NCBI GenBank assembly: GCA_026874595.1
Contig: CM049312.1
Location: forward strand, 26,467,956-26,531,955
Source: Sipunculus nudus
Lineage: Eukaryota > Annelida > Sipuncula > Golfingiida > Sipunculidae
Length of the DNA stretch: 64,000 bases
Direction of reading: 5' to 3'
This document shows positions 5,417 to 63,600 of this stretch, one piece after another. Under the pieces are notes generated by a model. The model was not told the DNA's origin. It searched no databases and saw nothing but the letters and a program-made list of their open reading frames with translations. The position numbers were made by a program, and so were the translations under genes. Each line of letters opens with the position of its first letter. Position 1 is the first letter of the stretch.

Positions 5417-5422
5417 TTTATT
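5417..5422 (-). promoter_or_regulatory. PolyA signal of gene A
   Basis: AATAAA on the minus strand, about 70 nt past the point where the 3' end aligns with gene B, whose own AATAAA is in the matching place. Confidence 0.6.
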
Positions 5423-60600: not shown

Positions 60601-63600
60601 TGTATTTACGCAAATTGTTCTTAAAATTCTTGTCACTATAAACTGTTCATGGCGACTATTAACTTATATGTAGATTTTTCTCAGTCACCATACAGTCCAT
60701 ACCATATATCACTTTCCAATCGTTTGACCGCTATTGTCAGCATAATTATTACACTTTGTATTCATATAACATTGTACGTGGTCTATCCGTGGAAATACGG
60801 TGTTTCACAGAATGAATAATATATGTCAGCATCCCAAATTATATAATTACAATTATACTTGTTAAAAATCAAACAGAGTGTACCAATATATTACAAAATG
60901 AAAAAATACAAAATCAATCTATAATTGTAAATAAACAATAATTACAATTGTTAAATTAACAATAATTACTTACACTTGTCGCAGTCTCTACCGACATAGT
61001 TCTTTGGACAGGAACTACAGAAATATCCTGGCGGAGAGAAAATCTTCTTGCAGCGTGATCCGTTCTTACAGGGACTCTTGTGATAGCAGGGGCTCACTGA
61101 CATGATATACCAGAAATGAATATGAAAATTAAAAATCAATATTTAAATATATATATATATATATATATATATATGTCATATTTTACATATATATGAGAGA
61201 GAGAGAGACAAAATGAGCCATCGAGAGACACACAGACAGACATTTATGTATATGATGTACATCAACATCGACGGGAGACCATTAAATATATTCAATAGTT
61301 AAAAGATAAATCAATAATGTGTCTTGAATATTAATAATCTGTTGCAATATTCTTTGAAATACGAACAAATTAATCTTGATAAACAAAGTCTTAATTATAA
61401 TAACAGATTACGAAGGCGAGTGAATCTAGTGCATTTTAATATGTTTCTCTACAAAATCGGGCCTCCTATGCTGAATATGCATCGATTCAGGCGGGGACCA
61501 ACAGTAGGCGGTGCTATAAACATATACAAATGATGAGTACATCAGATTTCGCCCCCGCGCCCGTCTCTGTGAGTGTGCATTCAATTCATGTTAATAAGAG
61601 TGCAGAAAGTCATAAAAATACTACGCCGGTGACATGCAGAGGCAGGGAACATCAGTGCAATCCGGATGTATTGCTTCGGGGCTGGTTCAGCAGCGGTTTT
61701 GCAGGGGGTGGATGCGAACTGAAGATAACAATGCCTCTAATTGTGGTGTGGCTGTTATCTGTTGTCGCTTTGTGTGAGACGGTTTTATAATTTCCTCTCT
61801 GGCGTTAAATTGCATCTCCACATGGGTACAATGTGTGACCCCAGTTGATACACTCAGCAGCTGTTTCTAAGGCGGCCTCCCTGGTTCTATGACCGCGGTT
61901 TTATTCACTTATATAGAGCCCCCTGAAGAGGTAATAACCCCACCATGGTCAAGGCTGTATCCGTACTAAGTATTTGCATCTAAATCGAGTTATACCGAAC
62001 CGGTTTTATTTAGGCTGGAAGCAATCCTCTTTGCGTCCGCACGGTAGTTTGTCTTACAACCTAAACAGGTTTATGCATTAAAATTTAGCTTGCTGTTCGC
62101 ACGTGGTTGTTAATGAAGTTGTCTGTGCTGCTAAAAATGCTAAAGAAATGATCAAATGACAGCAAAACTAGCCTCACGCAGATTCGAAATAGATTGGCCT
62201 GTGATAAGATTTACAGTAAGTCGGACTACTGTAAACTGGACTGCTGAAGATCACCTTTCACGCGGATTACAGTAGACATGCAGAAGTGATGCTGATTAAA
62301 AGGGCCAAATCACGTATAAAGCATGTTGAATTAAAATGGATAAAAGATGCTTCCCTTTAAAATAAATCGGTACCTGACATTGCCTTAAAACCGTTTGCCT
62401 ACTAATGTAAAAGAGTGTTAAAAACAGTGGACCCGGCGCGATCACAGGTGTCAACATAAACAAAGCGTGTGGGGCTGTGTGCATCGCAGAGCCATAACAC
62501 GTGTCAATCAGGAGTTGCCCTGACTGATTAGGGCCAAAAAAATCTAATACATGTTCCCATCTGAAGAAATATCGCGTTTTGCGGCTCACAGTCGGACCTC
62601 CAGTCACGCGGCCTTGTTATGGTAAACATACACAAGTGGACTGTGTTTACCAACACGCAGAGCCATAACAAGGTGTTAAACAGCCGAGGTACTGAGGCTG
62701 TGGATGGTTTTGCTGGGGATACTTATAAAGCAAATTTGAACTGATAGTGTGAAAGAAAAGGAATAATATAGCTCCTGATTATTCATTTCTTTTAATGGTT
62801 TAGTGCAGACAGAGTAATCCGATTAATGATCCGAATTATTTGCTAGTGCGGATACTACCTAACAATTCTAAACATAGCATAAAATAATTTCCAGACAGGT
62901 CATATGCCCAAGGATTCAGCTTGCTATATAGTGAGCGCACGTGATCATTTATAGATGTTTCCTCTAGAACTGAATAAGGATATAGGACCTACCATTTCTC
63001 ATATTGGCAAATAATCATATTTTTAAATATATAAAAATCTTGAATGATGTGGGATTTCTCTGAATCTAACCTTAAGATTAGTGACTATGCTTAGGGTATC
63101 TAATCAGAATATCAGCAAAGGTTACAGGGAAAGTCTGAATTAAAGGGATATTTTTTGTCAATGCGTATATTACATCTGATTGTCAATACAAAGAGAGCCT
63201 TTGTGGAGATAATGATGATACTGGCGGTGAATATATATACATTTTTGCAGGATAAATTCATGGAACAAATATTTGAGTAAAAACCATAATTTTGAAACAT
63301 ATCATACTTACCGGATTCGCAATTTTTTCCGTAATGGTATTTTCCACAGTAACAGAAGTAGCCGGCTTTGGTGTACCTCGTCTCGTAACATCGGCCACCG
63401 TTCAGACATGGCCTTGAGTAACACGCCAATCTGCGAGGCTTAGCGGCATGGATCTCCACCTGGAAATAGTAAAAAGATTTGTTATTGAAAATACTGAAGA
63501 TCAAGTTATTTGGCTTAATATTTATTTATTTTAAATAAACCATCATTGACACACTAACAAAAACAAAGAAAAAGAAATGTACAAAGCGATGATCCTTCAT
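51674..63600 (-). CDS. Gene C: secreted 6xEGF plus Cys-rich-block protein (3' end uncertain)
   Basis: Exons: probable signal exon 63600-63559 (or to 63541); EGF exons 63459-63312, 61096-60974, 59126-59004, 58491-58363, 57588-57451, 56895-56782; Cys-rich exons 56261-56186, 55657-55482, 53617-53506, 53111-52972, 52587-52524, 52124-51964. Phases agree at every junction from the first EGF exon onward. The Cys-rich block keeps exon lengths 112, 140 and 161 and the cysteine spacing of genes A and B. Either the gene splices onward from the GTGAGT at 51963 to an exon I could not find, or the last exon reads through to TGA at 51916-51914 (AATAAA at 51679-51674). No Gly/Lys repeat tail was seen. Four more EGF domains than A or B; a secreted, matrix-type role is inferred. 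Confidence 0.82.
51964..52124 (-). CDS. Gene C exon 13: Cys-rich block, last segment recognised
   Basis: 161 nt. Acceptor TTTTGTAG|GTGG; donor CAAT|GTGAGT. It encodes WLIDIDNRRECFLGAL, PECMKYEKSV and GQFCHDVKQ. If the donor is not used, the frame continues CEYWKFCLIAAVYFEA to a TGA at 51916-51914. Confidence 0.85.
52524..52587 (-). CDS. Gene C exon 12: small Cys-rich exon
   Basis: 64 nt. Acceptor TTTTGACAG|ACTG; donor TGCAG|GTAGAA. It encodes CPSLTPQVCNRFYEGDNAMC; three cysteines. It is the counterpart of gene B exon 7, two codons shorter. Confidence 0.82.
52972..53111 (-). CDS. Gene C exon 11: Cys-rich block, CxxxWxxxxLxxTGC-like segment
   Basis: 140 nt, as in genes A and B. Acceptor TGTTTACAG|TCAC; donor CTCTG|GTGAGA. 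It encodes ILQDSLHCLSDWKNSYLSF, then TGCEAYDAIV and LLLCS. Another frame is also open here, but only this one joins both neighbours in phase and aligns with the paralogues. Confidence 0.83.
53506..53617 (-). CDS. Gene C exon 10: Cys-rich block, PGTCSxRxxxCG segment
   Basis: 112 nt, as in genes A and B. Acceptor CTTAACAG|AATCC; donor AACCG|GTCAGT. It encodes SSPGTCSERAKACGVLFLRI and ends VPCNETN. Confidence 0.84.
53746..53756 (+). other. Isolated Pol III B-box match
   Basis: GGTTCGAATCC, a perfect B-box word, without a convincing A box or tRNA fold upstream. Probably a SINE or tRNA relic in a gene C intron. Confidence 0.3.
54349..54389. repeat. Poly-G tract
   Basis: 41 bp of G broken by TT and single T. 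It could fold as a G-quadruplex on the plus strand. It lies in the gene C intron between exons 9 and 10. Shorter homopolymers are G 12380-12395 and C 18619-18637. Confidence 0.85.
55240..55302. repeat. (TA)n microsatellite
   Basis: Near-pure TA run in the gene C intron between exons 9 and 10. Confidence 0.92.
55482..55657 (-). CDS. Gene C exon 9: Cys-rich block, CxCRP segment
   Basis: 176 nt. Acceptor CTTTTTAG|ACAC; donor TATAG|GTCAGC. It encodes GAGETEKCHNEMLDL, TKSCDCRPPDVALLY and WHCVYRLRR; four cysteines with the CxCRP core. Confidence 0.83.
56186..56261 (-). CDS. Gene C exon 8: start of Cys-rich block
   Basis: 76 nt. Acceptor TTATGTCAG|GAAAG directly after a long (ATT)n run; donor GTTT|GTCAGT. 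It encodes KCQIDVRACDYPTLPDDV then FDKC, matching exon 3 of genes A and B in cysteine spacing and in phases 1 and 2. Confidence 0.82.
56266..56440. repeat. (ATT)n microsatellite abutting the gene C exon 8 acceptor
   Basis: About 170 bp of trinucleotide repeat. On the minus strand it ends TTATTATGTCAG at the exon boundary, standing in for the pyrimidine tract. Confidence 0.92.
56782..56895 (-). CDS. Gene C exon 7: EGF-like domain 6
   Basis: 114 nt, phases 1-1. Acceptor TTTTTAAG|CCAAT; donor AACA|GTCAGT. Cysteines: CATTVCENGGTC and YCTCPRNYTGDRC. Confidence 0.9.
57451..57588 (-). CDS. Gene C exon 6: EGF-like domain 5
   Basis: 138 nt, phases 1-1. Acceptor TTTTACAG|GTGAT; donor ATGC|GTGAGT. Cysteines: CLLKPEVICKNGGTC and YSCYCTNQYYGDRC, with a long Ser/Thr-rich loop between them that includes an NST motif. 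Confidence 0.9.
58363..58491 (-). CDS. Gene C exon 5: EGF-like domain 4
   Basis: 129 nt, phases 1-1. Acceptor GATTGTAG|AGGAC; donor TTTG|GTAAGG. Cysteines: CTITPPLCLNGGKC and YTCTCPYEYRGDRC. Confidence 0.91.
59004..59126 (-). CDS. Gene C exon 4: EGF-like domain 3
   Basis: 123 nt, phases 1-1. Acceptor CCTTCAG|TAAAC; donor ATTC|GTGAGT. Cysteines: CVADRPCQNGGKC and FQCKCPVGFRGSRC. Confidence 0.9.
59680..59950. repeat. Dispersed repeat shared with 34.31-34.56 kb
   Basis: Partner of the previous repeat, in the gene C intron between EGF domains 2 and 3. Clearly diverged. Confidence 0.55.
60160..60352. repeat. Dispersed repeat with imperfect inverted ends
   Basis: The GAACTTCATAGACAGATCT segment also occurs at 33,527-33,545, and TTTAGACTGG...ACCC.GCTCT recurs near 86-108. 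AGACTGGTACCCTGCTCTA (about 60,257) is roughly the reverse complement of sequence at about 60,300-60,342. Confidence 0.4.
60974..61096 (-). CDS. Gene C exon 3: EGF-like domain 2
   Basis: 123 nt, phases 1-1. Acceptor ATGTCAG|TGAG; donor AAGT|GTAAGT. Cysteines: CYHKSPCKNGSRC, then YFCSSCPKNYVGRDC. The Cys4-Cys5 spacing has two residues instead of one. Confidence 0.86.
61147..61208. repeat. (TA)n and (GA)n microsatellites
   Basis: TA run 61147-61174 and a short GA run near 61196-61208, upstream of the gene C exon 3 acceptor. Confidence 0.85.
63312..63459 (-). CDS. Gene C exon 2: EGF-like domain 1
   Basis: 148 nt. Acceptor TATTTCCAG|GTGG (phase 0); donor TCCG|GTAAGT (phase 1). After VEIHAAKPRRLA comes an EGF domain with CYSRPCLNGGRC and YFCYCGKYHYGKNC. 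Confidence 0.88.
63541..63600 (-). CDS. Gene C exon 1 (tentative): signal peptide
   Basis: ATG at 63600 opens MKDHRFVHFFFFVFV, a typical signal core. Two donors would join in phase 0 to the EGF exon starting at 63459: GTTAGT after 63559, or a weaker GTTTAT after 63541. The intron would be only 80-100 nt. No TATA box is obvious upstream, so the real first exon could lie beyond the window. Confidence 0.5.

Follow-up and report, generated by a model that had tools for sequence, protein, structure and literature searches.

Three neighbouring genes for predicted secreted proteins, designated A, B and C, were revealed in a stretch of 64,000 nucleotides of the Sipunculus nudus genome (contig CM049312.1 of assembly GCA_026874595.1, positions 26,467,956 to 26,531,955; hereafter the window). 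All of them combine epidermal growth factor (EGF) domains with a cysteine-rich block of six exons, which can be read as three six-cysteine modules, each encoded by two exons, a short one (phase 1 to 2) followed by a long one (phase 2 to 1). An earlier note on this DNA had described three genes in one orientation and an exon-1 relic sharing such a block, and this observation is confirmed: we rebuilt the genes exon by exon with their splice sites and phases, and the models agree with proteins that are secreted, modular and tandemly duplicated. The family is dispersed and wider than the cluster, since it includes gene D on contig C5 and nine more places with related exons. We put forward, as a speculative and rather doubtful proposal, that the block is a new extracellular domain type of a large animal family, and that a 36-bp repeat, expanding after the conserved WGC and ahead of a conserved basic cleavage motif, converted it into a cohesive material protein in a single small tandem cluster.

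Organization of the gene cluster

Genes A, B and C are neighbours on the minus strand, with one exon-1 relic between B and C. Exons were modelled from the reading frame first, and then from the acceptor, donor and phase. Gene A (from 21883 to the stop at 6259) and gene B (38412-25446) have 9 exons each, and gene C (65453-47362, with a candidate exon 1 outside the window) has 14. The 64-nt block exon and the block-start exon of 70 to 82 nt, both present in A, B and C, were found because the phases of the first-pass exons mismatched. All 29 modelled introns are bordered by GT...AG; a few donors are weak, such as those of B exon 2 (gttggt) and of C exon 56261-56192 (gtgttt). In all three genes a TATA-like sequence is located a little 5' of the ATG and AATAAA lies 3' of the coding end. 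The predicted proteins comprise 554 (A, to the first stop), 461 (B) and 554 (C) residues. The features are as follows (window positions).

Gene A
21691..21883, minus: exon 1, putative signal peptide and EGF 1
16602..16730, minus: exon 2, EGF 2
13220..13301, minus: block module 1 short exon, phase 1 to 2 (83% identical in DNA to its counterpart in B, within introns that have otherwise diverged)
11583..11767, minus: block module 1 long exon, phase 2 to 1
10964..11075, minus: block module 2 short exon
10041..10180, minus: block module 2 long exon
9484..9547, minus: block module 3 short exon
7076..7236, minus: block module 3 long exon
6259..6857, minus: last exon, block-end WGC and 13 repeat units (stop inside the 13th)
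5557..6258, minus: repeat array past the in-frame TAA, 233 in-frame codons to a second TAA at 5559-5557; AATAAA at 5422

Gene B
38220..38412, minus: exon 1, putative signal peptide and EGF 1; TATATATA about 45-50 bp 5' of the ATG
34706..34834, minus: exon 2, EGF 2
30119..30197, minus: block module 1 short exon
28922..29106, minus: block module 1 long exon
28242..28353, minus: block module 2 short exon
27626..27765, minus: block module 2 long exon
26832..26895, minus: block module 3 short exon
26056..26216, minus: block module 3 long exon
25446..25768, minus: last exon, WGC, five exact 12-residue units, SRKRRSVSRRSADVSGFLYLL, stop; AATAAA at 25391

Relic
45994..46161, minus: A/B-type exon 1, 66% identity, one stop, cysteines lost

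Gene C
65453-65397, minus, just beyond the window: candidate exon 1, MALYLRSFVLTCLCLILCE (one of two rule-based candidates)
63312..63459, minus: exon 2, EGF 1
60974..61096, minus: EGF 2
59004..59126, minus: EGF 3
58363..58491, minus: EGF 4
57451..57588, minus: EGF 5
56782..56895, minus: EGF 6
56192..56261, minus: block module 1 short exon (sole right-phase candidate in its intron; weak donor)
55482..55657, minus: block module 1 long exon
53506..53617, minus: block module 2 short exon
52972..53111, minus: block module 2 long exon
52524..52587, minus: block module 3 short exon
51964..52124, minus: block module 3 long exon
47362..47471, minus: last exon, ..GWGC and a short tail to SRKRRGVPLL; AATAAA at 47262 (picked from 12 rule-based candidates by likeness to the ends of A, B and D)

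A and B consist of a putative signal peptide, two EGF domains, the block and a repeat tail, and C of a putative signal peptide, six EGF domains, the block and a short last exon free of repeats. The arrangement reported earlier for A and B, with two EGF domains ahead of the block and repeats behind it, is borne out by Pfam matches to PF00008 and by the 36-bp units of the last exon. In whole-protein score, PF00008 exceeded its curated cut-off of 21.5 bits in A (37.5 bits; E 2.9e-9 with most of the tail left off), B (35.6 bits; E 1.1e-8) and D (58.1 bits). The EGF exons of C were identified by pattern and phase, outside the Pfam scan; every EGF exon past the first in A, B and C has phase 1 at both ends. 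For C the six EGF exons described before were recovered, and the statement that it has no visible tail had to be corrected, as it possesses the last exon at 47471-47362, which is repeat-free. The signal peptides, read by eye, correspond to hydrophobic N-termini in A, B, C and D, with the difference that the candidate signal-peptide exon of C (65453-65397) falls outside the window.

The cysteine-rich block

Of the block exons, four are equally long in all three genes of the cluster (112, 140, 64 and 161 nt), and the first two vary a little (82/79/70 and 185/185/176 nt, respectively). The gaps between cysteines are 6-13-13-16-1-20, 6-18-13-13-21 and 7-10-11-10-25 in the three modules of gene A, and 6-14-13-13-1-24, 6-14-13-13-21 and 8-12-11-10-25 in those of gene D, where modules 1 and 2 both show the spacing 6-14-13-13. 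Module 1 of gene C lacks the third cysteine. Agreement in spacing between modules was compared with 100,000 random placements, giving p 0.00016 for A and 0 of 100,000 for D; the first and last cysteine of each module were fixed and the modules were chosen after the pattern had been seen, which makes these p-values generous.

No Pfam family matched the block of A, B, C or D, and only EGF-type and weak EGF-like models were recorded in the proteins. Searches of the PDB by phmmer with the gene D block and with a four-row profile gave no match apart from a single hit per query, attributable to chance (E 1.5 and 0.94, respectively). With regard to Pfam and the PDB the block is undescribed; it occurs at about a dozen places in this genome and merits a family entry and a structure.

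Distribution of the family in the genome

When the genome (1.43 Gb, 153 contigs) was searched with the block of gene B, 14 matches at E up to 10 were obtained (15 of 15 candidates scored), 13 in the window and one elsewhere. With this query gene D was found, a 592-codon open frame (E 6.8e-8, 24% identity over residues 3-258). From its likely start D has 550 residues, with a hydrophobic N-terminus, EGF domains (seven by reading together with EGF_2 stretches, five by PF00008), the entire block and the end WNCFK, the tail being absent. Being intronless where its relatives have introns, gene D is most likely an old retrocopy whose frame was kept. It carries EGF domains and block in one uninterrupted frame, which gives independent support to the exon joins of A, B and C. 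Gene C is only distantly like B: two of its six block exons were matched by the B-block query (E 0.004 and 0.39), so that its kinship is argued from exon lengths, phases and cysteine positions.

With the D block as a query, and then with the newly found exons, nine more places with related exons were reached (C12:27346098, C11:22996839, C7:65732970, C7:23942739, C13:48379399, C13:48747040, C13:48868835, C8:10568924 and C6:25386189), together with two further weak places on C13 (E 0.38). This chain begins weakly with the D query (C12, E 0.007; C11, 0.24; C7 at 65.7 Mb, 2.6), and it is borne out by the exon layout. Exons were read at seven of the nine places. Long exons of module 2, 131 nt each with phase 2 to 1, were revealed at five of them (L054, L055, L147, L148 and L149), and long exons of module 3 at two (L056, 161 nt; L146, 158 nt). 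For L146-L149 only phase 2 to 1 was sought, so the evidence there is the equal lengths and not the phases; the donor of L146 (one of four) and the acceptor of L056 (one of several) were chosen by likeness. Two of the places have an EGF match upstream on their own strand, at C8:10575578 (about 6.5 kb off) and C13:48882794 (about 14 kb off). These matches hint that EGF domains and block may also be joined there, although EGF matches are common in this genome.

The search with exon 1 of gene B gave 77 matches (150 of 724 candidates scored). The top three were B, A and the relic, and the next one drops to E 1.1e-8; the relic is the sole other A/B-type exon 1 among these matches.

Divergence between the genes

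Over 354 codons, A and B differ by 0.185 non-synonymous (dN) and 0.36 synonymous (dS) changes per site (dN/dS about 0.5), and purifying selection has acted between them. In the block dN reaches 0.245. Among single exons, dS is lowest in exon 1 (0.078) and in the long exon of module 2 (0.142) and rises to 0.77 and 0.84 in others; gene conversion may have homogenised the two exons with the low values. In comparisons with C synonymous sites are saturated. In introns 2 and 5 of A and B (first-pass models), alignment is confined to exons, simple repeats and short fragments that resemble repeats.

The repeat tail of genes A and B

The tail unit, G(G/R)PDSW(E/D)YGKGK, has 12 residues and follows the block-end WGC. 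Tandem Repeats Finder scored the array 1191 in A (5507-6813) and 325 in B (25528-25727). In B there are five exact units and the frame is open. The whole array of A contains 31 units; the first in-frame TAA (6261-6259) lies in the 13th, leaving 18 units beyond it, and both stops (6261-6259 and 5559-5557) fall at the Tyr codon of a unit. The TAA at 6261-6259, past which the frame continues for 233 codons, may have arisen by a recent nonsense mutation, may be polymorphic or may stem from a sequencing error. Counting both sides of this stop, Trp is present in 27 of 31 units and Tyr or Phe in 27 of 31. Relative to the reference unit, 12 non-synonymous, 5 synonymous and 1 stop change were counted in the 130 codons that end with the stop unit; the 180 codons beyond it contain 14, 9 and 1, respectively. 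Constraint is thus not visibly lost past the stop, as would be expected if the stop is recent or if constraint was slight throughout.

In the last exon of A, RPRRSADVT and, directly behind it, a duplicate of the exon start (DEKIF..GC) break the array, which indicates that both internal duplication and the gain of units have enlarged this exon. The last exons contain 35 K+R vs 30 D+E in A (up to the stop) and 21 vs 16 in B. The terminal SRKRR is common to B, which ends in SRKRRSVSRRSADVSGFLYLL, and C, which ends in SRKRRGVPLL; since the last exon of C has the same GWGC start and SRKRR end, the repeats of B sit between two parts that are present in C. Other basic sites are RPRRSADV in A, SRRSADV in B and, between the first two modules of D, KKRRSK. 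Provided that the tail has a function, the neighbours C, B and A would show how an ordinary secreted EGF protein acquired a repeat-rich, possibly adhesive segment within its last exon.

The tail was not found in other genes: the genome search gave 34 matches (83 of 83 candidates scored), nine belonging to A and B in the window and 25 lying outside it, none of them better than E 2.3e-5, and of the latter 11 were fetched and six read, representing five unrelated repeats and one peptide-precursor-like frame. At C11:14226326 (L047), a hydrophobic N-terminus accompanied by many copies of the DYMDFLMGKR type resembles a neuropeptide precursor. Six words of the tail repeat are absent from open-licence PubMed Central papers, where no description of a protein type with EGF domains, block and tail was found either.

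Possible functions of the proteins

Mussel foot protein-2 (fp-2), an adhesive component of the byssal plaque, contains eleven EGF domains and 3,4-dihydroxyphenylalanine (PMC5911496). The proteins described here resemble this structural adhesive in their run of EGF domains and in their predicted secretion; they differ in the EGF count (2, 6 or 7) and in the cysteine block and the Gly/Lys/Trp/Tyr tail, which do not figure in the portion of the fp-2 description drawn on here (PMC5911496). Similarly, a secreted EGF protein (gigasin-2-like) and a low-complexity protein rich in Gly, Tyr, Asp and Lys are both listed for the fibrous prism matrix of Mytilus (PMC4517812). Compared by description, these features belong to different proteins in the shell, whereas in A and B they are united in one protein with an extra block.

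By such analogy, A and B might be components of an extracellular secretion or matrix; this is the explanation we favour, at slightly less than an even chance; the basis is the charge-balanced Trp/Tyr tail and the EGF proteins known from byssus and shell. The core of these proteins consists of EGF repeats followed by three six-cysteine modules, presumably disulphide-rich, and is predicted to be secreted. The last exon of A and B has gained the 12-residue repeat after WGC, and in B the repeats precede the basic SRKRR, which could be cut by proprotein convertases. The folded EGF/cysteine head, probably rigid, may represent an anchor or a partner-binding part, and the tail, near charge-balanced with one Trp and one Tyr per repeat, may be flexible and cohesive, either associating with itself or becoming cross-linked. 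The role in an extracellular material suggested by the earlier note, be it in byssus, shell or mucus, remains plausible with regard to tail composition and known EGF proteins. The block itself is not tied to a material, since it occurs in C and D without the tail.

Several results weigh against the explanation outlined here. Profiles of the modules did not match each other significantly: the scores of exon pairs E3-E5, E3-E6 and E5-E6 were reached by 5, 42 and 27 of 60 shuffles, and in a second comparison reversed controls beat two of the three real pairs. The case for triplication is therefore made by spacing and phases only, and the modules, if they are copies of one another, must be very old. 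In addition, the tail of A is cut by an in-frame stop, the dN/dS of 0.5 reflects only moderate constraint, and C and D keep the block without a tail, so that any role in a material might be limited to A and B, or might not exist at all.

The tails may also be a neutral minisatellite expansion tolerated in the last exon and devoid of function. The in-frame TAA in A, unit changes about as common before the stop as after it, and the fact that C and D manage without a tail are in line with this; we nevertheless regard it as improbable, because Trp, Tyr and the charge balance are kept in A and B, and the tail of B is open and intact. If the proteins are instead signalling precursors, cleavage at the basic sites would free a C-terminal peptide or the tail, while the EGF/cysteine portion would act as a soluble receptor or a ligand. 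The basic sites listed above (SRKRR, RPRRSADV, SRRSADV and KKRRSK) are compatible with such processing, which appears unlikely given that paired basic sites between units are lacking except for the single RPRR in A, that the freed C-terminal pieces of B and C would not be alike, and that no EGF ligand family exceeded its cut-off.

A possible, if doubtful, explanation is that these are secreted recognition or immune-type proteins, in which microbes or self ligands would be bound by the EGF domains and the variable cysteine modules, with the tail serving as a spacer or for multimerisation. The rapid protein change that accompanies tandem duplication (block dN as given above for A vs B) and the numerous paralogues speak for it, as do the many C1q genes, a secreted immune-type family, in this genome (at least 141 matches, 150 of 203 candidates scored, a count with no comparison genome beside it). 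An expansion of C1q, with which this count agrees, is reported for bivalves (PMC6835236). On the other side, Pfam revealed no lectin, C1q or other recognition domain in A (most of the tail left off), B, D or the block of C, and a Trp/Tyr/Gly/Lys tail is, to our knowledge, atypical of such proteins. The block could also be a diverged set of GDNF/GAS1-type domains (PF02351), the proteins acting like soluble co-receptors. GFR-alpha has three cysteine modules in a row and a C..CxCR..C pattern; the tandem modules of the block and the CxC in its module 1, where C..CxCR..C can be read, are similar. The block differs in having no family match (PF02351 did not match A, B, D or the C block) and no convincing profile similarity: the scores of long-exon profiles against a GAS1-like gene were reached by 6, 33 and 37 of 60 shuffles, the two-row GAS1 profile being a weak test, and a further profile comparison with this gene was insignificant. 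That gene is L144 (C8:64258285-64258803), with a pair of GDNF domains in one open frame; it holds the only PF02351 matches of the genome (2 of 2 candidates scored). The kinship to which the CxCR pattern had pointed is thus unsupported by Pfam and profile comparisons, and we consider it very improbable.

Other features of the assembly and the window

Eleven COX1 matches were detected in the assembly, with near-equal scores on eight contigs (C60, C61, C62, C66, C72, C74, C75 and C89). The mitochondrial genome was not found among these 11 matches, two of which were read and proved bacterial. COX1 on C60 is bacterial, with 52-58% identity to the 80 nearest relatives listed, which belong to mixed phyla, and C123 carries a bacterial oxidase operon, presumably cbb3-like. 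Possibly, the bacterial oxidase contigs belong to uncharacterised bacterial partners. A short COX1 match on C5 with one TGA may be a nuclear mitochondrial scrap. A search for the haemocyanin family was without matches, as was its control, and an APGW-peptide query picked up 94 matches, located at repeats in many places.

Within the window, gene B and the relic are separated by a stretch that contains a tandem duplication with a 1,956-bp step (40126-44046; identity at 1,958 of 1,965 positions), which either arose very recently or reflects the assembly. A 1.5-kb array of GGACTTGGACTCGAGTGGCC-type repeats (7931-9421; Tandem Repeats Finder score up to 1225) is found in gene A, in the intron that separates exons 7 and 8, and a short array of a unit resembling the GGACTTGGACTCGAGTGGCC-type repeat is located in intron 1 of gene B (35885-36078). 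Finally, a tRNA-Ser (GGA) was identified by Rfam and ARAGORN on the plus strand at 30351-30422, in intron 2 of gene B beside AT repeats; it is perhaps part of a tRNA-derived short interspersed element.

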